Assembly (NCBI GenBank): GCA_945869265.1
Contig: CAMBOI010000003.1
Coordinates: 1-64,000, forward strand
Length of the DNA: 64,000 bases
From: an uncultured Prevotella sp.
GTDB lineage: Bacteria > Bacteroidota > Bacteroidia > Bacteroidales > Bacteroidaceae
Direction of reading: 5' to 3'
The translations under genes and the position numbers were made by a program. This document shows, in pieces, positions 1-23,523 of this stretch (its first letter is position 1; each line of letters opens with the position of its first letter). The notes below the pieces were generated by a model. It worked only from the letters and a program-made list of their open reading frames with translations. It made no database searches and was not told the origin of the DNA.

Positions 1-2
1 GC

Positions 3-62
3 GAGCTTCACGTGCAGAAGTATCCTTACAACGATTTCCTTTATGATATAAATGAAGAGTGA
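3..62 (+). CDS. C-terminal end of an unidentified protein (5' partial)
   Basis: One frame stays open from the window edge to a TGA at 60-62 and reads as a plausible C-terminus (ELHVQKYPYNDFLYDINEE). The last codons and the stop lie in a GAAGAGTGAAGAATGA heptad repeat, as at several other gene ends in this window. The next gene starts 4 bases later, so the two are probably co-transcribed. Too little is present to name the protein. Confidence 0.55.
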   Translation, partial: ELHVQKYPYNDFLYDINEE

Positions 63-65
63 AGA

Positions 66-1950: not shown

Positions 1951-1990
1951 TAGCGGGGAAACAACTGTAACGCTGTAACGCTGTAACGCT
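1951..1990 (+). repeat. Iteron-like CTGTAACG array, left boundary of accessory block
   Basis: Three tandem copies of CTGTAACG follow a GGGGAAAC leader, and the array ends 2 nt before the primase stop codon. A 27-nt stretch (1964-1990) is identical to the right arm of the large palindrome at 18633-18659 and to the reverse complement of its left arm. The preceding GGG-purine-rich bases are also conserved. See the findings for a possible role as element boundary or primase site. Confidence 0.85.
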
Positions 1991-4281: not shown

Positions 4282-4688
4282 AGGCACGCCTCCCATTCCT
4301 CGTCCTTACCCACGCTTCTCTGGCTCTTGGCATAGGCCTCAATCTGCCTTAGCTCCTCATGCAATATGCTATTTATCAGCTTCTTGCCATATCGCTTAGG
4401 CATATTGATAGAGAAGATGATGTTAGCCTTCGACTGCTTCACAGTTCCATGTCTTGTCTTGAAGATCCTTGAATATCGGCTTCCGCCACCGCCGACATAA
4501 GGCAAAAACTTGCTGCTGCCGTCATCATTGCTGATCATCTTGCCCTTCTGCACCACCGACATCTTGCCGCCAGCCACAATCTGATGCTTGCCTAATTCAT
4601 ACACTGCAGGAGTAATTGTCACTCCGCCATTCTCGTGATAGACCGTCTGACTGTCCATCTTCGTTGTCTGAATAAACACATTTCTCAT
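4278..4688 (-). CDS. Hypothetical protein of the primase module
   Basis: 136 aa, basic, no signal peptide or membrane segment. Its middle is Gly-rich (VGGGGSRYSRIF) and its C-terminal third is helical and charged. I do not recognise the family. It is translationally coupled to the primase through an ATGA overlap, and a TTCAACT repeat separates it from the DUF3127 gene. A nucleic-acid-binding or primase-accessory role is a guess from position and charge. Confidence 0.65.
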   Translation of the reverse strand: MRNVFIQTTKMDSQTVYHENGGVTITPAVYELGKHQIVAGGKMSVVQKGKMISNDDGSSKFLPYVGGGGSRYSRIFKTRHGTVKQSKANIIFSINMPKRYGKKLINSILHEELRQIEAYAKSQRSVGKDEEWEACL

Positions 4689-4706
4689 AATCTTTTAATA
4701 TTAAAT

Positions 4707-4748
4707 TTTCAACTTTCAATTTTCAATTTTCAACTTTCAACTTTCAAA
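4707..4748. repeat. TTCAACT/TTCAATT heptad array
   Basis: About six 7-bp units lie between the DUF3127 gene and the 136-aa gene. On the minus strand the array (GTTGAAA) runs into the coding end of DUF3127 and supplies its last codons and TGA. Confidence 0.8.
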
Positions 4749-5026
4749 ATTTTCCAGCAGCGGTTCTCCTGAGCGAACATCTGCTTGCCGGCTTTCGTCT
4801 GAAACTCTCTCACTGTGGAATAGAATCCCACTTCCACCATGTCGCCCTCACGCAGTGTCTGCGCCATGTTCACCTTGTCGTTCATCAGCTGCAGCACATA
4901 CTTGTTAGGATACTGCACGTTGGGAGTATTTTCCTCCACTACGATAGTTTGCGACACCCAATTGTTGCCCGTTGTCTGCGATACGCCCGACTCCACAGGC
5001 ATGATTTTGTTTACCTTGTAATTCAT
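4730..5026 (-). CDS. DUF3127-like OB-fold protein
   Basis: 98 aa. The pattern of strands and the motif YVLQLMNDKVNMAQTLREGDMVEVGFYSTVREFQTKAGKQMF match the DUF3127 family, small proteins predicted to adopt a single-strand-binding-like OB fold. It probably binds ssDNA as an accessory to the nearby primase; this is inferred from family and context. The last four residues (KVES) and the stop are written by the GTTGAAA heptad repeat, so the native end may have been remodelled. Confidence 0.7.
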   Translation of the reverse strand: MNYKVNKIMPVESGVSQTTGNNWVSQTIVVEENTPNVQYPNKYVLQLMNDKVNMAQTLREGDMVEVGFYSTVREFQTKAGKQMFAQENRCWKILKVES

Positions 5027-5044
5027 AATTTTTTTATTTTTTTT

Positions 5045-5081
5045 AAATTCCTAATTCCTAATTCCTAATTTCTAATTTCTT
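5045..5081. repeat. CCTAATT heptad array
   Basis: About five 7-bp units lie between the M15 peptidase and DUF3127 genes. Read on the minus strand as AATTAGG, they encode the peptidase C-terminus (LEIRN) and its TAG. Confidence 0.85.
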
Positions 5082-5489
5082 AAACACTTGCCGATTAGCC
5101 TCCGTATCCCTCTTGCACGACACATGCAGCCACACCGCGCCGTTCTTGTTCCGCTCCAGCAGCATCTGGTCGAATCGGCAGTTGTCCTCGATCCAAGCCG
5201 CCCATGCTCTGCCCTGCTTCGGCGATGCTATCCGTATATCCGCTGCCTCGCCCCTGCAGTGTTGGCTATTCTTCACTCCGCCAACCGCCACGTTTAATTC
5301 CGGACAACGATATCCCGAATTAATATGAACAGGAGCACCAACATAATCCCGAAGAGGCTGTAAGACCTCTAAACAAAGATTTCTCAAATTCTTAATTACC
5401 TTCTCGTCCTTGGGAACATTGTCAATCCCCATTCTATCCGCCGTTCTTGAGCGGATGAACTCTTCTAATGCAAAATTTTTACTTAACAT
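5058..5489 (-). CDS. M15-family D-Ala-D-Ala carboxypeptidase-like zinc peptidase
   Basis: 143 aa, matching a lone Peptidase_M15 domain. The zinc ligands are visible: His77 and Asp84 in SQHCRGEAADI and His122 in VWLHVSC, and SGYRCPELN is the usual preceding loop. There is no signal peptide, so export would need lysis or a holin-like partner, as with phage endolysins. In Bacteroidetes such cell-wall hydrolases often sit beside VirE-type primases and smalltalk peptides. The C-terminal residues are encoded by the AATTAGG repeat. Confidence 0.85.
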   Translation of the reverse strand: MLSKNFALEEFIRSRTADRMGIDNVPKDEKVIKNLRNLCLEVLQPLRDYVGAPVHINSGYRCPELNVAVGGVKNSQHCRGEAADIRIASPKQGRAWAAWIEDNCRFDQMLLERNKNGAVWLHVSCKRDTEANRQVFKKLEIRN

Positions 5490-5518
5490 TATGTTCTAAA
5501 GTTTCTATATTATTAATC

Positions 5519-6274
5519 TTATTTCTCATGCAAGAAAATCTGTAGGAAGTGTTGTTGTCCCTTTCCTGTTATCATGGGTGTCACAGCCAACTCCATACCG
5601 TGGTCGGTTGAGATCCAGCACTCTTTCACAGCCATGATTCCCCTCTCAATCCACTTCTGCATAGGCTCGCGTGACTGCTTGAAGATATATCCGTTTTCTC
5701 TTAGCCACTTAAACAGTCTCCTGCGTCCGATTTCTATTCCGTTCTCATAGAGTATCTTCGCCATCTCTCCCACCATGATGTTCTCATCCGAACCGCTCAC
5801 CTGTTTGCCAAGCTCCGCCATTGGTCGCTGCTCCTCAATCAGGCGTTCCTTTTCTTCGAGAGTGCGCTTCATGATGCCCAATGCCTTCGCCAGCACCGTC
5901 TTTTCGTCGTCATCAGCACTCACCGGAATATAGCCCCCAGTCTTTCTGATCTGCGGCAGCACCTCGCCGAAAACCCAGTCCTGAAAGGTCTTGGCCTCCT
6001 CTTTCTTGCTTTGAAAAATACAGCGATAGAGGTTTGCCTCGCCGATATATGTCATCGATGTAGTGCGAGTGAATTCACCATGACGGTTAGCTGATTTTGT
6101 AGTAACCTCCACTGAAATGAGGTTACTAGAATCGAGTCTCGTTTTCACCTGCGACGGATTTGCCAATTCGAGTGCCTTGCACACGTCCAACAAACAGAAC
6201 AGCGGTTCTCCCTTCTCGTTAACAGCGATTCTTATATCGCCAAAAGTTGGATTTCCAAAAATCTTAATATCCAT
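5519..6274 (-). CDS. Bro-N antirepressor-like DNA-binding protein
   Basis: 251 aa. Residues 1-115 match the Bro-N domain of phage antirepressors (FGDIRIAVNEKGEPLFCLLDVCKALELANPSQ, and the WVFGEVLPQIRKTGGYIP end signature). A short coiled coil follows at about 130-150. The C-terminal part (MVGEMAKILYENGIEIGRRRLFKWLRENGYI) matches the ANT/KilAC domain. It is expected to regulate transcription of a mobile element. It probably has its own promoter (TATCTTTG at 6478-6485) and a leader of about 200 nt. Confidence 0.85.
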   Translation of the reverse strand: MDIKIFGNPTFGDIRIAVNEKGEPLFCLLDVCKALELANPSQVKTRLDSSNLISVEVTTKSANRHGEFTRTTSMTYIGEANLYRCIFQSKKEEAKTFQDWVFGEVLPQIRKTGGYIPVSADDDEKTVLAKALGIMKRTLEEKERLIEEQRPMAELGKQVSGSDENIMVGEMAKILYENGIEIGRRRLFKWLRENGYIFKQSREPMQKWIERGIMAVKECWISTDHGMELAVTPMITGKGQQHFLQIFLHEK

Positions 6275-7103: not shown

Positions 7104-7821
7104 TGTCACTATCATTATTATGATTAACTGTTCCGTGATTATTCACTACAACTTGATCCGCCGAGCCTATTAATGGTTGCTGCGGATGGTTTTCATCATA
7201 TTCTTCGGTAATCTTATTGATTTCCCGAAGTTTGCTAAGAACATCAGCTTGCGGCAATTTTTCATTTTCAAGATAGTATTTGGTCAACATATCTTTAATA
7301 TTAGTTGCTCCGGCCCTTGTCTTTGGTTTATTCTTAGCGTAATTAATTATCCATTTTGTCTCTACATTATCGACATCCTCTCTCTTTTGTCTTTTTAATA
7401 AAGACTCATATTTTGTTTTATATTCGTCTATAGGTTCCGTGACATAGGCAAAAGGATAGTTCTCATGTTCATTTCTCCAATTGTCAAATTGTTCTTGCAG
7501 GGCATTCTTTTCTTTATCTAACAGCCTATACTCCCTTGCAGTCTTTTCCGCTTGTGAGCGCCATGTTCTTGCTTCTTTTTCCAATTCAGTTTTCATTTCC
7601 TGGAGCTTTTCATTTTCAGCTTCCAGTTTTTTTATGTATTCATCTTTTTTTCTGGAGGACTCATCCCTGCTATTAATGTAGGAGGCAAAATCCTCGTCGA
7701 GCGCAACCTTTCGCCTCATATGCTTAAGTTCAGCCTCGATAGACACAACTTTGGCAGACAGCTTTTCGTTTATTTCAGTCAAGCTCTTGTTTCTACGCAT
7801 TAATTCATTTGTTGATGACAT
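7090..7821 (-). CDS. Coiled-coil accessory protein of the defence operon
   Basis: 243 aa, family not recognised. Residues 1-120 are almost pure heptad coiled coil rich in Lys and Glu. A helical domain follows (about 140-205, WIINYAKNKPKTRAGATNIKDMLTKYYL), then a short Asn-rich beta-like tail (VVVNNHGTVNHNN). The start overlaps the end of res by 17 nt, so translation is coupled. It may bridge or activate the helicase-nuclease, much as coiled-coil subunits do in other defence complexes; this is inference only. Confidence 0.75.
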   Translation of the reverse strand: MSSTNELMRRNKSLTEINEKLSAKVVSIEAELKHMRRKVALDEDFASYINSRDESSRKKDEYIKKLEAENEKLQEMKTELEKEARTWRSQAEKTAREYRLLDKEKNALQEQFDNWRNEHENYPFAYVTEPIDEYKTKYESLLKRQKREDVDNVETKWIINYAKNKPKTRAGATNIKDMLTKYYLENEKLPQADVLSKLREINKITEEYDENHPQQPLIGSADQVVVNNHGTVNHNNDSDNGQK

Positions 7822-10800
7822 ATTCTAAGTTTTGATAAGTTTTCACACAAGTATATATTACATCATTTGTCGAGATGGATTCAAAGTGCTTTCTGGCGCA
7901 TTTTATCTTGGCGTCTTCTGCACCACGTATTTGAGATGGGTCGAGGTCGTTGCCCTTTGTCTCAACCACAAAGTATATGTGCTTCACTGTACCTTCCTTG
8001 AAGGCGATTGCCCAGTCGGGATTATACTTTCCCATGGGCGTGCTTATATAAAACTCCCTTGGCAGTTTAGTATAAACCACTATCGACGTGTCGTTTTCGA
8101 GCGATTTGGCAAATTCCATCTCTACGCCCTCACTGTCAACCACCACGAGGTCATACAGCGACCGCTTGCTCTCTATGGCATTCTTTCCGAGCACTCCACG
8201 TAGTTCTGATGCAGCAAAGATGTCCGTACTGAATGTTTTGTTCATCTTTTCGTATTTGATATGCTCAATAACGCTCATTGCCTTGCAGTCGTTTATTATC
8301 CTGCTCACCTTGATGATGAAATCCTCAGGATTCAACTGAAACTGCATGAACTTGTCTTCCCTGATACTTTTCAGTATGTTAACAATTGTTCTGCGTGTCA
8401 ACCCTGTTCTTTGAACAAGTTCGCCCACAAGGTCATACTTCACGTTACCACCTACAGCCTCCTTCAGGAAAATCGTCTTTGTCTTTCCCTGTTCCATGGC
8501 AGTGGCAGTTTCAAGTTGTTCGCGGTCAGCTATTTTTTCCATTTTTCCGCTTTCCACCTTTATCACCACTTCTGTCACGAACAGCCGGTTGTCAATCTCA
8601 TCCACCGCCTTTTTCACCAAGTCGGCAGATTCAAAATTCACGTTATAGTAGGTTCTCTTGTTAATCCTCTGCCACAGTTCTATCCATTCATGCTTTGCAA
8701 AGTTCTTGGTATTGAGCTTTGCCACTTTTTTGTTTCGGCTATTCTCCGGTTTTTGCTTTTCGGGGTCAAATACGAGTTCAAGTCTCTTTGCAATAAATGT
8801 CTTTACATCATTAACTGAACCGAAGTCAAGTTTACCTTCACGCTTTTCATCGAAGAATTTCCTTGTCAGTTGTCCGTTCTCTATATAGTCGTGCTTTATG
8901 AGTTGCTCATGTATTGCCCTCGCCTTTTGGGTAGTTATATAAACAGCATTTCCGCTCTCGCCTGTAGCCTCCATCTCGGCGAATAGTGTGGCAGTCACCA
9001 CCGTAGGCCTGTTCTGACAAGCCTCGGCAATCTCCTTCTGCAGTTTGTCGGCAAAGTCCTCATAGCTCTCGCTCGCTATCACCGTCAGCACGTTGGTGTC
9101 GAACACATGTTCCTGTCCAAGCACATCGCTGTCCTGTCGCTCGCCCTTGGCGTTGACGCATAGGCGCATACCACGCCCCACCTCCTGGCGCTTCTTTATC
9201 TCGTTGGAGGTGTCCTTCAGCGTGCATATCTGGAATACGTTGGGATTGTCCCAACCTTCCTTCAAGGCAGAGTGTGAGAAAATAAACCTCACAGGCGTAT
9301 TCATGTCGAGCAGTTTTTCCTTCTCCTTCATGATGAGATTGAATCCACGTTCCTCGTTCTCTCCCTCCTTGTTCTTCGAATCCACCACGTTTCCCTTCTT
9401 GTCCTTCGAGAAATATCCGTCGTGAATCCTTTCAGCAGCGTTCCTTGGGTCTTGCAGATAGCGCATATATTCGCCTTCGGTCAGCTCAGGCATCAGTTCC
9501 TGAAGACAGCGTCGGTATTCCTCTTCAAACATATCGGCATACTTGCCGTTCTGTGTCGCACCGCCATCGCCATATATTCTGTAGCTATCCACATGGTCGA
9601 TAAAGAACAAACTGAGCACCTTTATCTTCTGTGGGAACAACATTCGCTCCCTTTCGAGGTGTGCCTTGATAGTCTCCCTTATCTGTATGCGCCTTATCAA
9701 GTCTTCGTTCACCGCTCCTGTGGCATCGCCCTCATGCAGCACCAATCCGTTGAGAAATCTCACCGTTCCTGCCAATCCGTCGATACGCTCTATCTTATAT
9801 CTGTCTTGATATTCAGCCAAGCCCTTGCTCTCGTCGAAGAGGTCGTCGCCGTCGCGCATCAGTTTCATGCTCTGTCTTGTGCCTGTGGCAGTCTTCATGT
9901 CATAGCTTATCCTTGCCTGGGGATTGCCCTTGCTCAGCACTATACTGTCGAGATACACAAAGCCATTTGTGGCAGTTGTACCAATCTGTCTGATACCTCT
10001 TACCTCAATTTTCTTCACCAATTGTCGGTTGTATGCGTCGATGGCATCCAGTCTGAACACCATGTTCTGTATGTCGTTCTTTCTGTGCGTCGCGCTATAA
10101 AGCACCTTGAACAGAGGCTCAAACTTCGCGATACCCTTTCTTGTGGCGTTTCCCTTGTCGGCTCCAAGCACACTCTGAGGTTCGTCGATTATCATTATTG
10201 GGCGGTTCTTGGATATCACGTCGATAGGCTTTCTCCATCCGAATTTCTCCTGTTTGGTGAAGATGATTCTTGCAGCGGCGTCACCACCACGTCCTTCCTG
10301 ATTCTTGTCCTCGTTCATCGAGGCATTGAAGGCTTGCGTGTTGATGATCATCACGTGGATATTGCTGCTTTGTGCAAAGTGGTCAATCATCTCGAGTTTC
10401 TTCGAGTTATACACAAAGTATTCCATTCTCTTGCCGTATTGCTCGGCAAAGTGGTCGCTCATACTCTTGAAGCTTTTCAGCACACCTTCCCTGATGGCGA
10501 TGCTTGGCACCACGACAATAAACTTCAACCAACCATATAGTTTGTTGAGTTCAAACATTGTCTTGATATAGGTATAGGTTTTTCCCGTACCTGTTTCCAT
10601 CTCCACAGTCAGTGTCCTTCTGTCTCCTTCAAGAGCTTCAATAGGCTTTATGCCTTGCTCCATCTGCGTCTTGCGGATGTTGTCGCAGATGTCCATGTCG
10701 CTTATTTGCAGAGGCAGGTTTGCATATCCCTCAGTGTTAAACAGACCTTGGTTTGTTCCTTGGTCTATGAGGTAGTTGCTCCCCGGCTCTTGCTTCGGTT

Positions 10801-10873
10801 GCCCTTTGAATGCGTCAGTCACGCATCGAGCCGCCTCCGTCTGAAACCGTTGATGTTTATATTTTATTTTCAT
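7805..10873 (-). CDS. Type III restriction enzyme, Res subunit
   Basis: 1022 aa, the normal Res size. It has SF2 helicase motifs: Walker A METGTGKT (residues 95-99 = GTGKT), motif II DEPQ (type III variant of DEAH), LYSATHRK, and SALKEGWDNPNVFQI with QEVGRGMRL as motifs V and VI. The C-terminus carries the endonuclease core PDWAIAF...YFVVETKG, a PD-(D/E)xK site. It uses ATP to translocate on DNA and, with Mod, cleaves unmethylated targets. It starts 3 nt after the mod stop. All key residues are present, so it should be active. Confidence 0.93.
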   Translation of the reverse strand: MKIKYKHQRFQTEAARCVTDAFKGQPKQEPGSNYLIDQGTNQGLFNTEGYANLPLQISDMDICDNIRKTQMEQGIKPIEALEGDRRTLTVEMETGTGKTYTYIKTMFELNKLYGWLKFIVVVPSIAIREGVLKSFKSMSDHFAEQYGKRMEYFVYNSKKLEMIDHFAQSSNIHVMIINTQAFNASMNEDKNQEGRGGDAAARIIFTKQEKFGWRKPIDVISKNRPIMIIDEPQSVLGADKGNATRKGIAKFEPLFKVLYSATHRKNDIQNMVFRLDAIDAYNRQLVKKIEVRGIRQIGTTATNGFVYLDSIVLSKGNPQARISYDMKTATGTRQSMKLMRDGDDLFDESKGLAEYQDRYKIERIDGLAGTVRFLNGLVLHEGDATGAVNEDLIRRIQIRETIKAHLERERMLFPQKIKVLSLFFIDHVDSYRIYGDGGATQNGKYADMFEEEYRRCLQELMPELTEGEYMRYLQDPRNAAERIHDGYFSKDKKGNVVDSKNKEGENEERGFNLIMKEKEKLLDMNTPVRFIFSHSALKEGWDNPNVFQICTLKDTSNEIKKRQEVGRGMRLCVNAKGERQDSDVLGQEHVFDTNVLTVIASESYEDFADKLQKEIAEACQNRPTVVTATLFAEMEATGESGNAVYITTQKARAIHEQLIKHDYIENGQLTRKFFDEKREGKLDFGSVNDVKTFIAKRLELVFDPEKQKPENSRNKKVAKLNTKNFAKHEWIELWQRINKRTYYNVNFESADLVKKAVDEIDNRLFVTEVVIKVESGKMEKIADREQLETATAMEQGKTKTIFLKEAVGGNVKYDLVGELVQRTGLTRRTIVNILKSIREDKFMQFQLNPEDFIIKVSRIINDCKAMSVIEHIKYEKMNKTFSTDIFAASELRGVLGKNAIESKRSLYDLVVVDSEGVEMEFAKSLENDTSIVVYTKLPREFYISTPMGKYNPDWAIAFKEGTVKHIYFVVETKGNDLDPSQIRGAEDAKIKCARKHFESISTNDVIYTCVKTYQNLEYVINK

Positions 10874-10876
10874 TCT

Positions 10877-12745
10877 TTATATCACCCTTATATTGTTATA
10901 AGCCTCATCTTCCGTCCAGTCGAGCTTCTGCTTGAAAGTCTCGAAGAGGTTTATCTTCTTGTCGTCGGAGTCGAAGCAAGCGTCTCTGAACAGCACTCTC
11001 AGCGGGTCTTTCTCCGCCATTGCTTCAATCACCTTGTCTGTCACATTTTCGGCAAAGCAAGCCACGAGGTCGCCCTCGTTCACTGTATATATCTTGCAAC
11101 CATCCACCTCTTCTGTCTCCATCGGTAGGTCGAGCTGCAATCCCCATGCGAGGATAGAGCCGAAAAGCAAGTCAAGGTCATTGCGGTCGGATTTGATGTT
11201 GTCGGCAAAGAGGTCGAGTTGCTGCTGATTGTATTCGCTTGGCGAGGCTTTTACGCCTGGGTTGAAGTTGCTGTCGTCAAGGCGGAGGACACGGAAACCA
11301 GTGTCGAGGTCATGGGTGGTAAGAGGGGACTCTTCCTTAATCTTTGTTGCGGCACGGCGGATGCGCTCTTTGCCGATTTCACAGATGTTTTTGTAGCCAG
11401 CTTTATTCGCTTCGCTGTCCGCTGGAGTTTCTTCTTGAAGTTGAACCATAATGAATTGACGATTTCCCCCATCTTCTGCATTTAGTTGCATAACGGCATG
11501 GGCGGTTGTCGCTGAACCTGAAAAAAAGTCGACAACTATTGAATCTTTATTAGAACCCAACATTACAATATTTGATAGAAGAGATACGGGCTTCGGGAAG
11601 TCAAAATATCTTTTATCAAACAGTTTTTCTACCTCTAAGCTACCTCTTTGATTCGTACCGAATTCTATTCCCCAAAAATCATTAGGTATTTGTCCCTTTG
11701 ATTCAGATAAATAAATTTTACCATATGGTTGTCCATCACCATTTTCTGTCCAATATATTTCACCTGCTTTGTCCATTCTGTCAAACTCTGATTCAGAAAC
11801 CATCCAAGGACCGTTGAGTATATTTCCTAATTTTGTTTTCTTTGGATAAAATCTGCGACCGCGAGTTTTATGCAAAAGGATTGATCTCCTAAACAATCCT
11901 TTTGCATCAGAATATCTATATTCTGCTTTTGCTTTATCACTTAACGGAAGTCTTCCTAATACGAAACTATTTGATTTAGCATATAATAAAATATGCTCTT
12001 TTACTCTTGCAAAATACCCAATATTAGGTTGATTATCAGTTCTTCTCCAAGCTATTTGAGCAATTATATTGTTCTCTCCAAAAACCTCATCACAAATCTT
12101 CCTAAGATTCTCTACCTCATTATCATCAATCGATATAAAAATCACCCCATCCTCTGCCAACAGAGAACGAGCCACCATAAGCCTCGGATAAATCATATTG
12201 CACCAATCCGAATGGAAACGTCCATTCGTCTCATAGTTCATAGTATAACGATTTCCAAGTTCATCAACAGCTCCGCTTGCCTCTTCATACTCATCTGAAG
12301 ACATAGCAAAGTCATCATGATATACAAAGTCATTACCAGTGTTATATGGTGGGTCGATATATATCATCTTTACCTTGCCCATATACGAGCGTTGAAGCAG
12401 TTTCAACACTTCGAGGTTGTCACCCTCGATATACAGGTTCTTGGTAGTGTCCCAATCCACAGAATCCTCAACTACAGGTCGAAGGGTCTTGTCGGTAGGT
12501 CGTGCTGCCTCAGCCTTGGCTGCATCCTTGCCCACCCAACGGAATTCATACGTCTCGCGGCTATCATCCACGGCATTGTCGCCAAGAAGTTGTCGCAAGG
12601 CGTCGAAGTTCACCACACGCTTCAACTCTCCAGTCTTCTCGTCACGGCTTTCCGTGAACGCCGACGGAGCTATCTGATAGAGTGCATCCATATCCAGCTG
12701 CGCCCCATCAGGAGTATTCAAATCAAGTCTTTTAATATCATTCAT
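10877..12745 (-). CDS. Type III DNA methyltransferase, Mod subunit
   Basis: 622 aa. It is a beta-class N6-adenine or N4-cytosine methyltransferase: DPPY at residues 131-134 (YIDPPYNTGNDF) precedes the SAM-binding FFSGSATTAHAV near residue 405. The variable target-recognition region lies between them, and its AT-rich codon use (about 11.5-12.1 kb) differs from the ends, which is typical of exchanged target domains. With Res it forms the type III complex and protects host DNA. It sits 5 nt after the 66-aa gene. Confidence 0.93.
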   Translation of the reverse strand: MNDIKRLDLNTPDGAQLDMDALYQIAPSAFTESRDEKTGELKRVVNFDALRQLLGDNAVDDSRETYEFRWVGKDAAKAEAARPTDKTLRPVVEDSVDWDTTKNLYIEGDNLEVLKLLQRSYMGKVKMIYIDPPYNTGNDFVYHDDFAMSSDEYEEASGAVDELGNRYTMNYETNGRFHSDWCNMIYPRLMVARSLLAEDGVIFISIDDNEVENLRKICDEVFGENNIIAQIAWRRTDNQPNIGYFARVKEHILLYAKSNSFVLGRLPLSDKAKAEYRYSDAKGLFRRSILLHKTRGRRFYPKKTKLGNILNGPWMVSESEFDRMDKAGEIYWTENGDGQPYGKIYLSESKGQIPNDFWGIEFGTNQRGSLEVEKLFDKRYFDFPKPVSLLSNIVMLGSNKDSIVVDFFSGSATTAHAVMQLNAEDGGNRQFIMVQLQEETPADSEANKAGYKNICEIGKERIRRAATKIKEESPLTTHDLDTGFRVLRLDDSNFNPGVKASPSEYNQQQLDLFADNIKSDRNDLDLLFGSILAWGLQLDLPMETEEVDGCKIYTVNEGDLVACFAENVTDKVIEAMAEKDPLRVLFRDACFDSDDKKINLFETFKQKLDWTEDEAYNNIRVI

Positions 12746-12750
12746 ATCTT

Positions 12751-12951
12751 TTATATTTTTAATGTCACATTTGGCATTGAAACTGAAGTATAGAATATAT
12801 CACCATTATCATCAATGTCAATCATATAATCTTCAATTGGATTGCCATTTGAATCAAATGAAGTGACACTGTCTTCACCCCATGAGAATGAAAAACCACC
12901 CTCATTTTCAATCAAATATTTCTCAACTTTATTTTTTATAATTTTATCCAT
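12751..12951 (-). CDS. Small acidic protein between DUF4391 and mod
   Basis: 66 aa, not recognised. It is acidic, with alternating short strands (GGFSFSWGEDSVTSF, NGDIFYTSVSMPNV). Its start overlaps the DUF4391 stop by 8 nt and it ends 5 nt before mod, so it is a real operon member. A small beta-sheet accessory or immunity-like role is possible but unsupported. Confidence 0.6.
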   Translation of the reverse strand: MDKIIKNKVEKYLIENEGGFSFSWGEDSVTSFDSNGNPIEDYMIDIDDNGDIFYTSVSMPNVTLKI

Positions 12952-13618
12952 TTCGTATTTTATTCAGTTCTTCCTTCAATCTTGTTATCTCCCGTTTCAG
13001 TGCCCTTGCCTCGGAGTTCATCTCCACTTGTCGGGCAAACTGTTTTTCTTTGCGGATTTTCTTTTGCAGGGCTTCCGCAAGCCTCTGTTTTATTTCTATC
13101 TCGTTCTGGATGGCGATGATGCGTCGAGTGTCGGCGGCTGACTTTGTGCCAAAGCCGGAGATCTGTCCGGCAAACGACTCATATATCCTGTCCATCGAGC
13201 CTCCCTCGATGATGAGGTTGATGCACTCGTCAGGTTGCCATGAGGTGCGGAAGGTCTTCACGATGTTGAATGTTCCCTTCTCCTTGTCTGCCCATTCCTT
13301 GTAATTGAGCAGAAGGCGGCAGCGGTCGCCATGGCGAAGCACAAACACTACATGACGAGGCATCATCTTGTCGATGGTGAGGAATATCTCGTCGGCGATG
13401 TCCTCAGCCTTCACTTCCACCTCAAAGAACACAATCTCATGCACCGTTGTTCCATCCTCTACATTCAATGACGAAGGAGTGTATTTCGCCCTCCACACAA
13501 TCCTCTCCACGTCCTCCACGAAGCGTGTCCGCAGCCTTGTGTTAAGCTCCAAGTGCTTGTAGAAGGCATTCTTCGGCACTGGCTTGCCAACTATCGTGGA
13601 TACAGGATAGGTTATCAT
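12944..13618 (-). CDS. DUF4391 domain protein
   Basis: 224 aa, matching DUF4391 through MITYPVSTIVGKPVPKNAFYKHLELN, the VEDVERIVWRAKYTPSSLNV segment and the VVFEVEVK-like core (IVFFEVEVKAEDI). The last 60 residues form a charged coiled coil. DUF4391 proteins are recurrent partners of SNF2-helicase and type III Mod genes; their function is unknown. The ATG overlaps the helicase TGA (ATGA), so it is co-translated with the helicase and probably stoichiometric. Confidence 0.85.
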   Translation of the reverse strand: MITYPVSTIVGKPVPKNAFYKHLELNTRLRTRFVEDVERIVWRAKYTPSSLNVEDGTTVHEIVFFEVEVKAEDIADEIFLTIDKMMPRHVVFVLRHGDRCRLLLNYKEWADKEKGTFNIVKTFRTSWQPDECINLIIEGGSMDRIYESFAGQISGFGTKSAADTRRIIAIQNEIEIKQRLAEALQKKIRKEKQFARQVEMNSEARALKREITRLKEELNKIRNG

Positions 13619-16600
13619 GGCTCACGTATGATTAGGAAGGTTATCAACTCGAAGTCGTCAAGACCCTTTATCTCTCCCCTCAACGCTGTGGTTTCGCCAA
13701 GCGAGAAGAGGCTGTCGATGTCCGACTCCTCCTTTATCTGCACAATGCTGTCGATGGCTTGTTGCAGCAGAGCACTGTATTTCTCCATCTTGCGTCCGTC
13801 CTTTGTCTCCTTGTTAAAGGATTTGCAAAGCTGGCGGTCGTAGTCGCCCTTGCCCTTGCACAACAGGCGCATGATGTCCAACAGATGCTTGGGGTGAAGA
13901 TGGTCGCACACCACCTCGCCATCGTCGGCAATATACACCATATAGAATGGATGCAGCAGGTTCTTGCGGTCGATATTCACCGCATTGTTTCTGTTCTTCA
14001 GAATGTATATGACTCCAGACTTTGCCATCGCGTTTTCTCCAACCACAGCACTCATCCCGAATGGTGCATGCTCGATGTCGGGATGTTGTTTTATGTATGT
14101 CAGCAGGTCAAGTCTGAATACGTTGAGTCCGAGGTCCATGATGTTGATGCCTGTATCCATGTCCTCCATATCCACCACCTCGTTTTGCAGTCGGCGCAGT
14201 TGGTTGCGGCGGTATTCAAGGTCGCCCTTCTCGTTGGCTGACAATAGGTTGTCATCGCCTGTCGAGGTGAGCACAGTGGCTTTCATTCGGCTCTCCACCC
14301 TGCCTTTCAGTTGTATATAGTCGTCAAGCTCTATGTCAGGCCAATAGTTCATCAGCTGTATCACCTCGTTTTTCGAACCGATTCGGTCAATTCTTCCGAA
14401 TCGCTGGATTATGCGCACAGGATTCCAATGTATGTCATAGCAAATAAGGAAATCGCAGTCCTGAAGATTTTGACCTTCTGAGATACAATCGGTGGCTATG
14501 AGCACATCAATCTCTTCTTTCACCTTTGCCTCTTTTGAACGAGGCGAGAAAGCCGAAAGCACATTGTTGAAGCTCATCGGGAACTTCTCTATGGTGCAGC
14601 GGCCGTCGGTTGAGCCTGTGATGAGGGCAGTGTTCAAGCCGCAATCCTTCTTTATCCTGTCTGCAAGGTTTTCATACAGATAGTTGGCGGTGTCGGCAAA
14701 GGCGGTGAAGATAATCACCTTCTTGTTGCCAGGGTTGATGGGATTGTCGAACTTGTGTTTTAGGTCGGCAATGAGCATCTGCAACTTGGAGTCATGCTCG
14801 GGAGTGATGTCCTCCAGCATCAGCAAGAGCAAGCGGAATTTCTCCAAGTCGGCTTTAATGTCCCTTTGCCAACTCATATAGTCCATATCCCTCAGTCGTA
14901 TCTTAGCCTTCTTGGTTGAGAATGGCTCTGTCTCGCTGTCCTGGGAGTCGAAGTCATCGTCAAACAGCTCCACATCCACTGACTTCTCCTGTCGGGTCTT
15001 GTCGTATTCGTCAATCTTGGCGATGGTCTCTTTTATATATTCGCAAATGCGCTCAAGGGTCAGTCGGAAGGAATTTACCGAACTCTCCAATCGCTTTAGC
15101 AGGTTGGTTGCCATCAGTTTGCGAAGTCCCTTCTCGCGTCCGTCTATTGAGATACCGCTGCCCTCATAGTCGATGGCATAGTCATCCTTGCGGCTGTCAT
15201 AGATATACAGTGACGGCGTATAGATGGCAAGGTTGAGTTCGTCCAACTGTGTGGCAATGTCGGTGAAGTTGATTGCCGACGATAGTTCTGTGAGCTTCGG
15301 ACGCTTGGATATAGGCGCAAGTCGGCGTGGGAACTTGCCGATGTCCTTCATGTCGTAGTACTTCATGATATGACTGCGACTGCGTGCGATGGTCACTGCG
15401 TCGAGCATTTGGAAAAACTCGAAGTCAAGGTCAGCAAGCAGTCGGTCGGTGGTGCGCTCCGAGGCATCGAGCTTTGCCCATTTGTTATACACTCTCTGCG
15501 CATTGCGGAATATCTCGTCGATGTCCTTGTCAAGGGCAAGTTCTGCATTGATATTGTCAGCATATCCCTCGTAGGCCAATTGTAGTTGGTTCTTCAGGTC
15601 ATTAAACCTGTTGTTGACAGGCGTTGCCGACAGCATCAGCACCTTGGTCTTCACTCCCTGCCTTATCACCCTTCTCATCAGCCTCTGATACCTATTCTCC
15701 CTAATTCCTAATTTTTCATCCCTAATTCCTAATTTTTCGCTTACGCTCAACAACTCGTCCTCATTCTCATCCACGTTTCCCCCATTTCTGAAGTTATGGC
15801 TCTCGTCGATGACGATAAGGTCGTAGTTGCCCCAATTGAGTCTTTCGAGGTTGATGCCGTTGCTTTCGCCACGGTCGCGAGTGAGGTCGGTGTGGAAGAG
15901 TACGTCATATCTCAGTCGGTCGGCTGCCACTGGATTGGTGTCGTAGTTGTTGCGGAATGTCTGCCAGTTCTCGTTGAGCTTCTTAGGGCAGAGCACAAGC
16001 ACTGACTTATTGCGAGTCTCGTAGTATTTTATCACAGCCAAGGCAGTGAATGTCTTTCCGAGACCAACGGAGTCGGCAAGTATGCAACCGTTGTATTTCT
16101 CCAACTTGTTGATGATGGCGAGGGCTGCATCACGTTGGAAGTTGTATAGCTTATGCCATATCACACTGTCCTTGAATCCAGTTCGCTCATTTGGCAATAC
16201 GTCTTCATTAATATCCTCCAAGAACTCATGGAAGATATTGTATAAGGCGATGAAATAGATATATTCTGGCGAGTTTTCCTGATACACTGTCTCGATATAT
16301 TCAAGCACCTTGGCAGTGACATCCTTGAATTTCTCGTCGTTCTCCCATTGCTCGTTGAATATCTTTATATAATATTCTGCCATCATCGACGGCATGACAT
16401 TGACAGTGTTGTATATGTTGTTGCCTCGCTCGATTCCGAGTTGTGTGGTTGTAAATTCCTCAAATGGCAGATATACGCAACTGTCTTCAACATTTTCCAA
16501 GTGCATAAATCCACCCATCTTTTCTTGTGATGAATTGGACTTAAACTTCACTTTCTTCCTTATCCACTCAGCACATTCCCTTGCGATGGCTTTCTGCGAC

Positions 16601-16893
16601 AGCTTATTTCTCAGCTTTATCTCGAAGTCAGTTCCATACAGATTACGCTCGCGGTTGAGCTTTGGGATAAAGAATTCCCTTTTTTCTTTCTTTACTTTTT
16701 CTGCGATAAATGTAGGTGATGTAAAGATAAACCTCATCTCTTCTATGCTTTCCAGCTCTTTTTTCAGAGCCTCGAAGGCATAGATAGAGAATGAGGCAGC
16801 CGCTATGGATATGCGACTATCGGATATTGGCTTTCCTTGAAGGTCGTCTATAACTCTTTTCGATATGTTGTCGATGACATAGGGTATATCCAT
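13615..16893 (-). CDS. SNF2-family helicase with N-terminal PLD-like domain
   Basis: 1092 aa from the ATG at 16893. The track start at 16965 is a TTG with 24 extra residues that do not fit the family. Residues 1-110 resemble a phospholipase-D-like domain (SRISIAAASFSIYAFEAL) without a clear HKD. The SF2 core has ADSVGLGKT (Walker A), VIDESHNF (motif II), LSATPVNN (III), ATDCISEGQNLQDCD (V) and QRFGRIDRIG (VI). It is the first gene of the operon and probably remodels or translocates on DNA for the Mod/Res system. A 21-bp duplicated insert lies between motifs II and III. Confidence 0.9.
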   Translation of the reverse strand: MDIPYVIDNISKRVIDDLQGKPISDSRISIAAASFSIYAFEALKKELESIEEMRFIFTSPTFIAEKVKKEKREFFIPKLNRERNLYGTDFEIKLRNKLSQKAIARECAEWIRKKVKFKSNSSQEKMGGFMHLENVEDSCVYLPFEEFTTTQLGIERGNNIYNTVNVMPSMMAEYYIKIFNEQWENDEKFKDVTAKVLEYIETVYQENSPEYIYFIALYNIFHEFLEDINEDVLPNERTGFKDSVIWHKLYNFQRDAALAIINKLEKYNGCILADSVGLGKTFTALAVIKYYETRNKSVLVLCPKKLNENWQTFRNNYDTNPVAADRLRYDVLFHTDLTRDRGESNGINLERLNWGNYDLIVIDESHNFRNGGNVDENEDELLSVSEKLGIRDEKLGIRENRYQRLMRRVIRQGVKTKVLMLSATPVNNRFNDLKNQLQLAYEGYADNINAELALDKDIDEIFRNAQRVYNKWAKLDASERTTDRLLADLDFEFFQMLDAVTIARSRSHIMKYYDMKDIGKFPRRLAPISKRPKLTELSSAINFTDIATQLDELNLAIYTPSLYIYDSRKDDYAIDYEGSGISIDGREKGLRKLMATNLLKRLESSVNSFRLTLERICEYIKETIAKIDEYDKTRQEKSVDVELFDDDFDSQDSETEPFSTKKAKIRLRDMDYMSWQRDIKADLEKFRLLLLMLEDITPEHDSKLQMLIADLKHKFDNPINPGNKKVIIFTAFADTANYLYENLADRIKKDCGLNTALITGSTDGRCTIEKFPMSFNNVLSAFSPRSKEAKVKEEIDVLIATDCISEGQNLQDCDFLICYDIHWNPVRIIQRFGRIDRIGSKNEVIQLMNYWPDIELDDYIQLKGRVESRMKATVLTSTGDDNLLSANEKGDLEYRRNQLRRLQNEVVDMEDMDTGINIMDLGLNVFRLDLLTYIKQHPDIEHAPFGMSAVVGENAMAKSGVIYILKNRNNAVNIDRKNLLHPFYMVYIADDGEVVCDHLHPKHLLDIMRLLCKGKGDYDRQLCKSFNKETKDGRKMEKYSALLQQAIDSIVQIKEESDIDSLFSLGETTALRGEIKGLDDFELITFLIIREP
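15697..15738. repeat. Two in-frame 21-bp repeats inside the helicase gene
   Basis: Two 21-bp units differ at one position and each contains two CCTAATT-type heptads. On the minus strand they encode EKLGIRD and EKLGIRE between helicase motifs II and III, a normally variable loop. The same heptad occurs in intergenic arrays elsewhere in the window. Confidence 0.9.
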
Positions 16894-17051
16894 TATTTCT
16901 TTACATTCTAATATTTCTACTTGTTTTATTATTTTTTTATAGGCTTCCACAGCGGCGGGTATCAAAACCTGTCACTGTGATTCCAAGAGGGTTTATGCCG
17001 AAATAAATAATGACGGGGAAAAAATTTGGAAAAAGGGAGATGATGGGAAAC

Positions 17052-17823: not shown

Positions 17824-17852
17824 AATATTTCAATATTTCAATATTTCAATTT
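17824..17852. repeat. TTTCAATA octamer array at lipoprotein gene end
   Basis: Three to four units. On the minus strand they encode the final EIEILKY residues and the TGA of the lipoprotein gene. Confidence 0.75.
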
Positions 17853-18372
17853 CTATATCTTTGCCACATAGCAGGAGGGTGCCATCTTCTTTGGGGAAGA
17901 GGGCGAGGGGACAGCCATTTATTGTGATATGGCCATCGGGAGAGTATGTGACGGGATATGTAGAGAGAGTTACGTCGATGGTCTCGCCGGGATAGGTGGC
18001 GGGATAAACGAGGTCGTGACGGTGGAAGCGGACGGAGTCTTCGGTGATCTCCATCATCGTGCCTTCCCATGCGATATCGGCAGTGAGGGGCGATGTGCCG
18101 ACAGGAACGACTGCCGACAAGATGTGCCAATCACCTAAGAGGGATTCCTGGGTGACGACTGTCTTGGTGGATGAAGTGAAGTCGGAGGGGGATGAGGACT
18201 CGATGTCCTGCTTTTCACAACTTGAGAGGGCGAAAAGTATTGATATACAGAGAATTAAAATACTTGTGTATTTACAAATGGGGGGGGGTAAAACGGATGA
18301 TGCCGATTTGGCGGCAGGCTTGCGGCTTGTCGCTAAGGTGTCGTTGGTATATGTCTTCGAGGCATTCATCAT
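17830..18372 (-). CDS. Putative lipoprotein with poly-C tract (possible phase variation)
   Basis: 180 aa, not recognised. After an unusual 33-residue polar N-terminus comes a hydrophobic stretch and a lipobox (ILILCISILFALSSC), so the mature protein would be lipid-anchored from that Cys. The remainder looks like a small beta domain (LLGDWHILSAVV, EGTMMEITEDSVRFH), reminiscent of lipocalin-like Bacteroidetes lipoproteins. A run of nine C encodes PPP between the start and the signal sequence, and no in-frame ATG lies between the tract and the lipobox. Its own promoter is present. The C-terminus is repeat-derived. Confidence 0.65.
   Translation of the reverse strand: MMNASKTYTNDTLATSRKPAAKSASSVLPPPICKYTSILILCISILFALSSCEKQDIESSSPSDFTSSTKTVVTQESLLGDWHILSAVVPVGTSPLTADIAWEGTMMEITEDSVRFHRHDLVYPATYPGETIDVTLSTYPVTYSPDGHITINGCPLALFPKEDGTLLLCGKDIEIEILKY
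18280..18288. repeat. Nine-base G:C homopolymer inside a CDS
   Basis: Nine consecutive G on the plus strand, read as three Pro codons in the lipoprotein gene. Slippage by one base would frameshift before the lipobox. Confidence 0.85.
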
Positions 18373-18496: not shown

Positions 18497-18660
18497 AAGC
18501 GTTACAGCGTTACAGCGTTACAGTAGTTTTCCCGAGGGTGTAAATTAGGGAAGATAACTTTTATTTATATATATTATATATAATATATATAAATAAACCT
18601 ATTTTATGGGTATTTTGAGGTATGGGAGAATCACTGTAACGCTGTAACGCTGTAACGCTT
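18497..18660. repeat. 164-bp concentric palindrome: iteron-like arms around an AT palindrome
   Basis: Perfect 28-bp inverted arms (18497-18524 and 18633-18660), each with three GCGTTACA/TGTAACGC units, surround a perfect 38-bp AT-only palindrome (18560-18597). Both share exactly the same centre, 18578.5. The arrangement resembles an iteron-flanked origin or a cruciform site. It lies in a 920-bp stretch without genes (18373-19293). Confidence 0.9.
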
Positions 18661-18691
18661 GGGGCGTTATCGAAGGGCAAAAGTGGGGTAA

Positions 18692-18738
18692 GTGTGAGTC
18701 CAGTGCTGCTCCAGTGTGAGTCCAGTGTGAGTCCAGTG
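18692..18738. repeat. GAGTCCAGTGT tandem repeat
   Basis: Three to four imperfect 9-11-bp units (GTGAGTCCAGT) lie between the palindrome and the dispersed element. No coding frame or promoter is associated. Confidence 0.6.
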
Positions 18739-18795
18739 AATTAGTGGAGGAGTATTGGGGTCACAGTGGAGGAACAGTGGGATCATAATGGAGGA

Positions 18796-20669: not shown

Positions 20670-22019
20670 TTACTTTTGTTTGTCGTTATTCTTTGAGATT
20701 TCATTTACCACCGAGGTCAATGAGCCTTCGGCAAGTCGGGTGGTGAGGATGTCGCCAGGATGGATCTCGTCGGTGGAGCGGAGGGCATGACCGTTGAGCG
20801 TGGTGATGCTGTAGCCACGCTGTAAGAGTAGGGTGGGATCGAGAGCCTTGGAGCGCTGCTCGAGTAGGTCGAGGGCGTGACGACGGCGGTCGATGAGCCG
20901 TGCGAGAGCCGGGGCAATGCGAATCTCCAAGGCCTTGAGGTCGGCATTGTGGCGGTCGAGGCGGCGACTGACATTGTGCAACATCACCTGATTGAGCCTC
21001 TCTAACTTGTTTTCCTGTTTGCTCTTCACAAGTGAGAAGAGTATGGGGATGCGCTCGGATACCCTGTTGAGACGCGTTTTTTCAATGTCCATGCGATGTT
21101 GGACATATTTCATAACTCTCTCCGCGGCATTGTCAATGCGTTCAGCCACTCGGTTGAGATTGTCAATAAGAAAGGCTGCTGCGGCAGTGGGAGTCTTCAC
21201 CCTTGTATGCGACACCATGTCGAGGATACATTCGTCGCGGTCATGACCGATACCGGTGATTATCGGCAGAGGAAAGTTGGCAACGTTTTCAGCCAACTGC
21301 AGAGAGTCGAATCCCGCCATGTCGCTGGTGGCGCCACCGCCTCTAATTATCACCACGCAGTCGTATTCTTCAATCTTGGCGTTTATCCTGTCGAGGGCGG
21401 CAATGATACTGACCTCCACTCCCTCTCCCTGCATGAGCGCATCGAAGAGAGTGGTGGAGAAACGGAATCCACGGGCGTTCTCCTCCAGTTGGCGGCAGAA
21501 GTCACCATAGCCGGCTGCCGTGCGTGATGAAATGACGGCAATGCGCTGGGTGAATAGCGGCAGGGGAAGTTCGCGGTTGAGGTCGAACACGCCCTCTGCC
21601 TTCAGTTGTCTTATTATCTCCTGCCTCCGCTTAGCCATGTCGCCAAGAGTGAAGCGAGGGTCGATGTCGTCGATTATCCACGAAAAACCATAAGCCTCGT
21701 GGAAGTCGGGATGAACCAACACCAACACCTTCATTCCCGCCCTGAGCGTCTGACCAGTGGTATGTTCAAAATATGGTTTCACCGAGCCCCACACATTTCG
21801 CCAGCATTTTGCTTGAGCCCTTGCCACAGGGGTGTTGTAGCCTTCAGCCTTCTCAATCAGGTCGAGATAGCAGTGCCCGCGGTTTTCGCCTATCTGCGCT
21901 ATCTCTGCCTCCAACCAGTATTGGTCGCAGAGATTGTCCTCTAATGTGATGCGCACCATGCGGTTGAGCTCCATCAGTGAGTAGTGGCGTGGCGTATCGT
22001 GTAAACCGTTGTGTCTCAT
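20670..22019 (-). CDS. xseA: Exodeoxyribonuclease VII large subunit
   Basis: 449 aa, the normal XseA length. It has an N-terminal OB domain (YWLEAEIAQIGENRGHCYLDLIEK) and the catalytic region (GYGDFCRQLEEN, IRGGGATSDMAGFD, ITGIGHDRDECILDMVSHTRVKTPTAAA). A long coiled coil and a C-terminal RGYSITTLNG segment bind XseB. It is a cytoplasmic single-strand-specific nuclease of DNA repair. Its ATG overlaps the TGA of the subtilase gene (ATGA). Confidence 0.96.
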   Translation of the reverse strand: MRHNGLHDTPRHYSLMELNRMVRITLEDNLCDQYWLEAEIAQIGENRGHCYLDLIEKAEGYNTPVARAQAKCWRNVWGSVKPYFEHTTGQTLRAGMKVLVLVHPDFHEAYGFSWIIDDIDPRFTLGDMAKRRQEIIRQLKAEGVFDLNRELPLPLFTQRIAVISSRTAAGYGDFCRQLEENARGFRFSTTLFDALMQGEGVEVSIIAALDRINAKIEEYDCVVIIRGGGATSDMAGFDSLQLAENVANFPLPIITGIGHDRDECILDMVSHTRVKTPTAAAAFLIDNLNRVAERIDNAAERVMKYVQHRMDIEKTRLNRVSERIPILFSLVKSKQENKLERLNQVMLHNVSRRLDRHNADLKALEIRIAPALARLIDRRRHALDLLEQRSKALDPTLLLQRGYSITTLNGHALRSTDEIHPGDILTTRLAEGSLTSVVNEISKNNDKQK

Positions 22020-23461
22020 CGGTCACCTCCTTCTGTTGATGTAGAGCGAATACACTTCCTGCCCATTGTCAAGGCTTGGTGGAAGTTGGGAATGCCATAA
22101 CCGAAGATATTGTCGGGATGAAGATGATTGTCGCCACTTTGGCGCACAAATTCCATTATCTGCTGAGGGGATAGCGAGGGCAGAGCCTGCCACAGGCAAG
22201 CCACAAGGCCGCACACGAGGGGAGTGGAGAAGGATGTCCCCATGTCCTCAATCACTGTGCCGCGTGACGACACCAACACGGTGGGACTTCCAAGAGCCAC
22301 CACGTCGGGTTTGATGCGCCCGTCGGCTGTGTTGCCCACACCGCTGAACGGTGCGTTTTTGTTCTCCTCGGTCACTGCCCCCACGGTCAGTATGTCATGG
22401 GCGTCGGCGGGGAAGGTGATTTTCTTCCAAGGTCCCATCCCGTTGTTGCCGGCACTGTTGACAAGGATGATACCTTTTTGCGCCAACATTGATGCAGTGC
22501 GTGAGATGAGTGCCGTGTGCCCATCAAGATGCCACAGGGGATGATCGCCGTAGTGATTGTCGTATTCGTAGTAACCCAACGAACTGTTGATGACATCCAC
22601 CCCGACGGAGTCGGCAAATTCGGCTGCCATAGCCCAATAATCCTCTTCTACGGGTTGCTCTGACTGTTGGTCTTCGCATCGCAAGAGCCAATAGGATGCC
22701 TTGGGGGCAGTGCCGATATATACGTTAGGGGCATTGATGGCCATCGCCGACAATACCTTGGTGCCGTGGTCTGTCTCATTGTAGAAAACGGGTGACGCCG
22801 GATAAACAAAGTCCTTTACTCCCTTGATGTCCACATTCTTAAACACCTGCTTGCGGTCAACCCCTGCAAATCCGCCGTCGAGCACAGCTATCGTCATCCC
22901 CTCGCCCCGATAGCCCTGTTGGTGGAGCCTGATGCCTCCCAATGCCTCAATCTGCGCCTCGGCCTTTCCGTAGGCAGCATTATGCACTGAGTCCCATGGG
23001 TTGAATCCGTCGCGGTTTTTCCTTGAACGTTTCACTCTTGCCGTTATGCTGTCGGGCGAAGTCCACACCATTGTGGCGGTTTTCACGCACGGCAACCGTC
23101 GTATTCTCTGCATTGGGGTTGTGTCTGTGCAGTTGATGAGCACAGTGTTGTTCCATTTGCTTGTGCCGATGATGCGTACAACGTCGGAGGCTATCTGCCT
23201 CATATACACGTAGCTGACGGGCAGGTCGGTGGAATCTACCTTTAGACCCAACCGGCGTCGGCGCTCTATTGCCTTGGGGGAGAGAAATTGCTTAGGTTTG
23301 TCGAGCGAATATCCACTACCGCATTTGTCGAGAAGTTCGATGCGGTAGGTATAGCACTTTTCACCGGGAAATTTTATTCTCGGCGACGAGCCTGTAGTGG
23401 AGGGGCGGGCAATCACTGTCATACAGGCTATCAGTAGCAGAACGGTCATTCGGTGTATCAT
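22016..23461 (-). CDS. S8 family subtilisin-like serine protease
   Basis: 481 aa from the ATG at 23461. The longer track start is a TTG inside the promoter. A signal peptide (MTVLLLIACMTVIA) directs export. The catalytic triad is visible: Asp in AVLDGGF, His in ETDHGTKVLS, Ser in GTSFSTPLVCG; the oxyanion Asn is in VNSAGNNG. It is a periplasmic or surface protease of unknown substrate. It heads an operon with xseA and xseB, a link without obvious functional logic. Confidence 0.88.
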   Translation of the reverse strand: MIHRMTVLLLIACMTVIARPSTTGSSPRIKFPGEKCYTYRIELLDKCGSGYSLDKPKQFLSPKAIERRRRLGLKVDSTDLPVSYVYMRQIASDVVRIIGTSKWNNTVLINCTDTTPMQRIRRLPCVKTATMVWTSPDSITARVKRSRKNRDGFNPWDSVHNAAYGKAEAQIEALGGIRLHQQGYRGEGMTIAVLDGGFAGVDRKQVFKNVDIKGVKDFVYPASPVFYNETDHGTKVLSAMAINAPNVYIGTAPKASYWLLRCEDQQSEQPVEEDYWAMAAEFADSVGVDVINSSLGYYEYDNHYGDHPLWHLDGHTALISRTASMLAQKGIILVNSAGNNGMGPWKKITFPADAHDILTVGAVTEENKNAPFSGVGNTADGRIKPDVVALGSPTVLVSSRGTVIEDMGTSFSTPLVCGLVACLWQALPSLSPQQIMEFVRQSGDNHLHPDNIFGYGIPNFHQALTMGRKCIRSTSTEGGDR

Positions 23462-23491
23462 CTTATTCGGTAACTTTACGAAAATTGGGTG

Positions 23492-23523
23492 CAAACTTAC
23501 AGTAAATTTGTGGAAAAACCAAA
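23492..23523 (-). promoter_or_regulatory. Promoter of the subtilase-xseAB operon
   Basis: The minus strand reads TTTG-N20-TAAGTTTG. It overlaps the TTG proposed by the track, which fixes the real start at 23461. Confidence 0.8.

Follow-up and report, generated by a model that had tools for sequence, protein, structure and literature searches.

Concentric palindromes dispersed in Bacteroidales genomes and a BT4734-like primase that very probably reads their arms

The window analysed here, i.e., a 64,000-nt stretch corresponding to positions 1–64,000 of the forward strand of contig CAMBOI010000003.1 of an uncultured Prevotella sp. (assembly GCA_945869265.1; genome G000, a gut or rumen Bacteroidales genome of 71 contigs and 2.81 Mb), contains a palindrome of 164 bases (18497–18660) that is a member of a widespread and not previously described family of sites. 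The protein that reads the arms of this palindrome is very probably the BT4734-like primase encoded at 1993–4296 on the minus strand of the same window, as indicated by lineage-matched repeat units, covariation of these units with a residue in the predicted recognition helix of the primase, and the presence of an additional array (referred to as the half-site) after the primase stop codon. Repeat-sequence and concept searches of the open-access literature revealed no description of the site or of its association with a primase, and no assigned DNA target was found there for BT4734-like primases, which are listed as a family outside any primase clade (PMC5862659).

The left arm of the palindrome (18497–18524, plus strand) is 28 bp long, reads AAGCGTTACAGCGTTACAGCGTTACAGT and comprises three GCGTTACA octamers with GCG at the outermost side, while the right arm (18633–18660, minus strand) is its perfect reverse complement. 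The core (18560–18597, no strand) is a perfect AT-only palindrome of 38 nt, and the sole perfect even palindrome of at least 16 nt in the window. The first-pass annotation of this DNA had claimed that perfect arms and a perfect AT palindrome have one midpoint, and this proved exact, with both centred at 18578.5. The TGTAACGC sequence occurs nine times in the window versus 1.39 times expected (0 of 100 shuffles reached nine), with six copies within the two arms and three within a further array at ca. 1965–1990, and exact CTGTAACG arrays were found at only three places in the whole G000 genome, i.e., both arms and 1965–1988. When folded as a single DNA strand, the element forms one long hairpin (–46.4 kcal/mol, z = –12.9), and an Rfam search with the element yielded nothing above the gathering score, only sub-threshold hairpin matches. 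Chance or low complexity as the origin of the palindrome was excluded by the copy excess, the folding z-score and the 61 concentric pairs described below. Degenerate 11/22-bp tandem repeats (AGTGTGAGTCC; AGTGGAGGA) are located just outside the right arm (18691–18790), and a run of nine or ten G at 18280–18288, near the start of a lipoprotein-like open reading frame (ORF; 17830–18372, minus strand), is a candidate slipped-strand phase-variation tract.

Exact repeats were sought in 301 genomes from the family and in a public genome collection, and the unit variants GTTACAG, GTTGCAG and GCTACAG were gathered. With a minimum AT hairpin length of 16 nt, at least 61 distinct Bacteroidales pairs of repeat arrays facing each other around such a hairpin were retained (median inner length of 108 nt, median hairpin of 28 nt). 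The hairpin centre was offset from the arm midpoint by a median of 0.5 nt, and by at most 3 nt in 45 of the 61 pairs, while 1 of 1220 trials with shuffled spacers attained the observed hairpin. The pairs differ in their spacers and cores, and the centres nonetheless agree. Because this median offset is seen across 61 distinct pairs, the common centre is not a coincidence of the window locus, bearing out the earlier suggestion that it did not arise by chance. Since one or two outer units were prescribed in the search, and the second arm, the core and the common centre were left free, conservation of the outer units is partly by construction. These sequence comparisons support conservation of the iteron and AT-core arrangement as a plan. 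Nearly all sites of the family are intergenic, with unrelated flanking genes of mixed orientation, and a few positions are common between species. In a genome of another genus (G241), a palindrome also lies ca. 0.6 kb from xseA. A different repeat, present in several copies in G138 (L267–L269), has a short inverted core (TTATTTTGGGCC...) flanked by GTTGCAG arrays and lacks the AT palindrome.

The 767-residue primase combines a BT4734-like archaeo-eukaryotic primase (AEP) domain, a P-loop ATPase domain and a C-terminal winged helix in a single protein, as in the P4 alpha and pRN1 plan. The MDID, GYH, GxxxxGKG and VDEIE motifs (AEP, Walker A and Walker B) are invariant in five aligned members, one of which matched PF08800 (BT4734-like_N; E = 6e-4). 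The winged helix constitutes the last 55 residues in the structure model (residues 713–767, encoded at 1996–2160, minus strand; pLDDT 85–92), and its predicted recognition helix carries the sequence TIRIW with the covarying residue Ile747. The full-length AlphaFold model of the primase was poor (pLDDT 41). When compared with the PDB, the winged-helix model mainly, albeit weakly, matched other winged helices (best E = 0.042), and a PDB sequence search with the primase gave no match. Primase homologues were found in 90 of the 301 family genomes.

The half-site (ca. 1965–1990, minus strand) is a three-unit array as in the palindrome arms, reads GCGTTACAGCGTTACAGCGTTACAG on the minus strand, has no AT core and directly follows the primase stop codon, at a distance of 16.5 kb from the palindrome; this third array had escaped the earlier reader of the sequence. 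Such a cis site adjoining the 3′ end of the gene also belongs to the P4 alpha and pRN1 plan. Many close primase homologues likewise have an array just behind the stop codon, located 2–30 nt past the stop in most matched primases and ca. 100–430 nt past it in others. In 7 of 10 genomes, the array behind the primase was identical to a palindrome arm of its own genome as an exact string of units and spacers (permutation mean 1.2, p = 5e-5), and this held for 5 of 8 when only other contigs were counted (p = 0.001 by permutation). In G131, the identity reaches beyond the array, into one arm's inner flank. Moreover, a primase was present in 30 of 41 array-bearing versus 60 of 260 array-free genomes, arrays thus occurring in 30 of 90 genomes with a primase versus 11 of 211 others (phylogeny not corrected for), and tandem 7–9-bp repeats followed the stop codon of 31 of 86 primases versus 47 of 445 other genes. 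In these ordinary ORFs (47/445, ca. 10%; window, L031–L044, L250–L306), the repeat starts at most 60 nt past the stop and often consists of 7-mers such as AATGAAG. More distant primases (L314, L317, L320, L341 and L358) have other short repeats past the stop (TAGACAAT, GTTTTCAG, CAGTTATA), while at L086, L090, L203, L257 and L271 arrays of like units are found inside the primase coding sequence, those of L086 and L090 being in frame (e.g., TALQRYS) in the linker between the primase and ATPase domains.

The repeat unit covaries with the residue x of a TLRxW motif, situated at the recognition position of the predicted helix (permutation p = 1e-5 on 19). Specifically, V or I occurs with the half-site GTTACAG (4/4; I in the window, L207, L208 and L219), S with GTTGCAG (7/7 loci), and T with GCTACAG (five loci). 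Residue and unit switch jointly in four close pairs on the tree, i.e., L208 (V, GTTACAG) vs. L209 (S, GTTGCAG; 100/98), L215 (S) vs. L309 (T, GCTACAG; 100/97), L202 (S) vs. L204 (T), and L200 (I) vs. L201 (T), with the latter pair on long branches. Recognition of the arms by the primase is thereby strongly supported at the sequence level, and would proceed through direct binding.

In 11 loci, the order along the direction of the primase is palindrome, cargo, primase and, in most of them, half-site, with the palindrome 0.8–14.6 kb upstream of the primase and its unit in agreement with the primase residue in 11/11. The respective distances are 14.2 kb in the window, 1.6 kb in G131, 5.5 kb in G042, 14.6 kb in G127, 10.2 kb in G078, 6.1 kb in G014, 5.5 kb in G098, 0.8 kb in G155, ca. 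6.5 kb in G030 (one arm, then the contig end), 2.3 kb for L126/L137 and ca. 9 kb for L142 with L086; no array follows the primase gene in L126 and L086. Many further primase loci stop at contig breaks. The cargo of most of the 11 loci consists of restriction or other defence genes, e.g., a DpnII-type restriction system with AbiH (G078), a ZorA-like protein (G127), a methyltransferase (G042), a HIRAN-like protein (G131) or type II restriction (G014, G098 and G030); L142 carries radical-SAM-like genes instead (assigned by eye), and nothing was recognised in L126. In the window, all on the minus strand, the primase is preceded by genes of the same direction (4278–6274) for a 136-residue unknown protein, a DUF3127 single-stranded-DNA-binding-like protein, an M15 peptidase/endolysin-like protein and a BRO/KilAC antirepressor, by a type III restriction-modification system (7805–12745; res at 7805–10873, mod at 10877–12745), and by a DUF4391 protein with an SNF2-type helicase (12944–16965; PADLOC C3a139 HKD+Snf2). 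No integrase, transposase or other recombinase was recognised in the blocks, the ORFs of which were scanned in part.

The window block lies between DUF4954 and xseA-side genes (window 1–1883 and 20670–23494; L031), and a comparison with 21 genus members in search of an empty site was uninformative because DUF4954 and xseA are adjacent in none of them. In L033, L209, L255 and L259, the primase half-site is followed by a lysozyme-like gene (RNNNPLNIRRS motif), so that the block often includes a lysis-type gene, and because of this gene the half-site was dropped as a candidate end of the element. The system is mainly not phage-borne, because neither AT core nor arms were present where the repeat matched viral contigs, and because the viral collection yielded only one primase relative.

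We consider it reasonably probable that the primase binds and initiates at the palindrome, and that the whole module serves as the replication unit of an integrated element. The C-terminal winged helix would bind the octamers, and the inverted arms would load the primase in opposite orientations on either side of the AT palindrome, after which the AT core might melt or extrude as a hairpin and then be primed, in the manner of P4-alpha or pRN1-type origins. The lone arm past the primase gene would be an accessory half-site, so that primase, half-site and palindrome might bracket a mostly anti-phage block as the replication module of an integrated element without a recognised recombinase. Palindromes without a nearby primase would then be non-autonomous copies served in trans. 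Melting, priming and replication (i.e., origin activity), as well as mobility and the route of integration, are what we infer from this arrangement.

Known systems offer partial parallels. P4 has more than one cis site per replicon, as would the Bacteroidales system. The P4 alpha protein is, moreover, a primase-helicase whose winged helix binds short origin repeats (PMC4234260), although its primase is of the TOPRIM type, its origin has no central AT palindrome, and P4 possesses an integrase and phage partners. The ORF904 protein of the Sulfolobus plasmid pRN1, like its counterpart in BIP-1-type phages, joins an AEP primase, a helicase and a C-terminal winged helix, and makes use of a stem-loop located downstream of the gene encoding it; of this stem-loop the structure, and not the sequence, is conserved (PMC4234260). 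The Bacteroidales system would share with these replicons a non-coding stem-loop origin, an initiation region directly 3′ of the gene and a structure that outlasts sequence divergence. Its hairpin, however, is situated upstream, combines iteron arms with an AT palindrome, is dispersed in chromosomes and accompanies another primase family. No Rep family, as in Rep_3-type iteron origins, was found among the window block genes scanned, a scan that did not include DnaA boxes.

Several observations weigh against this interpretation. Most pairs have no primase close by, and the stretch upstream of the primase yielded no palindrome in G197 (10.9 kb), G038 (8.7 kb) or G281 (5.8 kb). The permutation p-values given above ignore phylogeny. 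The residue–unit rule has exceptions in L203 (S with the half-site GCTACAC/G, its upstream palindrome being GTTGCAG as the serine predicts) and the distant L129 (MLRTW with GTTACAG), besides L216 (A, mixed units) and L217 (C, degenerate). Finally, no palindromes were found for two other units taken from distant primases, and an extension to all BT4734-like primases is for that reason not claimed. The first-pass annotation had compared the site to a replication origin beside a primase gene, and expected arms, AT core, common centre and primase to be retained together. This expectation held in part. The plan is indeed conserved, with the first three features together in 61 pairs, a primase in 30 of the 41 array-bearing genomes and the arms very probably read by that primase. 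The picture of one origin beside one primase is, however, unsupported, because most pairs are distant from a primase, several genomes carry 2–6 copies, and no primase was detected in 11 array-bearing genomes (some of which represent single chance matches).

The copies found together within one genome, some of them near-identical, bear on the best-surviving alternative, in which the palindrome is a non-autonomous transposon of the miniature inverted-repeat transposable element (MITE) or REPIN type with array ends, mobilised by the primase or an unseen enzyme as transposase and without any role as an origin. Like a MITE, the site is short and non-coding, ends in inverted repeats and can be present several times in one genome; two copies at unrelated loci of the one-contig genome G233 are 94.98% identical over 398 nt, their homology setting in on one side at the edge of the array, and several palindromes are located at contig ends. 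As in REPIN/RAYT systems, hairpin-forming inverted repeat doublets are dispersed intergenically and type-matched to a linked single-copy gene (PMC3116915). On the other side, however, homology between copies runs ca. 100–290 nt further (G073, G131, G143 and G233), and no target-site duplication was recognised among the aligned copies, nor any transposase sharing their ends. The RAYT protein belongs to the Y1 transposases, whereas no Y1 (HUH) or other transposase family was found in the primase or the scanned neighbours, the primase retains its AEP and ATPase motifs, and the Bacteroidales system has octamer arrays around an AT palindrome at low copy number. The dispersal is thus REPIN-like in form, without a Y1 transposase, and we regard a purely transposon-like nature as unlikely. 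The 188-bp PINSR repeat is likewise dispersed and intergenic in Prevotella, but highly amplified (177–184 copies) and reported without terminal inverted repeats (PMC4755523).

Less probable still is a regulatory site, with the primase repressing or autoregulating genes via the arrays, or the hairpin acting as a bidirectional terminator. The half-site directly past the stop, the intergenic palindromes and the arrays within some primase genes would suit such a role, but the flanking genes are unrelated and of mixed orientation, and neither the dispersal nor the strictly central AT palindrome would be explained. Inverted repeats concentric with a perfect palindrome are also the plan of N15 tos and poxvirus-type sites, and the entire strand folds as one hairpin; nevertheless, a hairpin-telomere or concatemer-junction site of a linear element, resolved at its AT centre, is very improbable given that no protelomerase or resolvase was found among the scanned block genes and that the palindromes are situated within chromosomal contigs. 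A role as the attachment site for an element with a tyrosine or serine recombinase, to which the same-orientation arrays flanking the accessory block at 1965 and 18634 might point, is hardly credible, with no recombinase recognised in the block, copies occurring without the element, and a half-site that lacks the AT core and, given the lysozyme gene beyond it in several genomes, is not a boundary.

That anti-phage genes are usually bracketed by palindrome and primase suggests a mobile or replicating element of a kind not recognised so far. It is conceivable, if only tentatively so, that these are recombinase-free mobile defence elements in which one primase-helicase, with a simple recognition code for repeats specific to its lineage, both replicates and disperses DNA, the palindromes of ca. 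160 bp being non-autonomous parasites of blocks bracketed by palindrome and half-site. Gut and rumen Bacteroidales commonly carry BT4734-like primases, and the present finding supplies these with a candidate DNA target, a predicted origin and a rule from residue to base that can be tested, and links them to mobile defence islands. The arrays and AT palindrome together provide a sequence handle with which such defence islands may be delimited in metagenomes.
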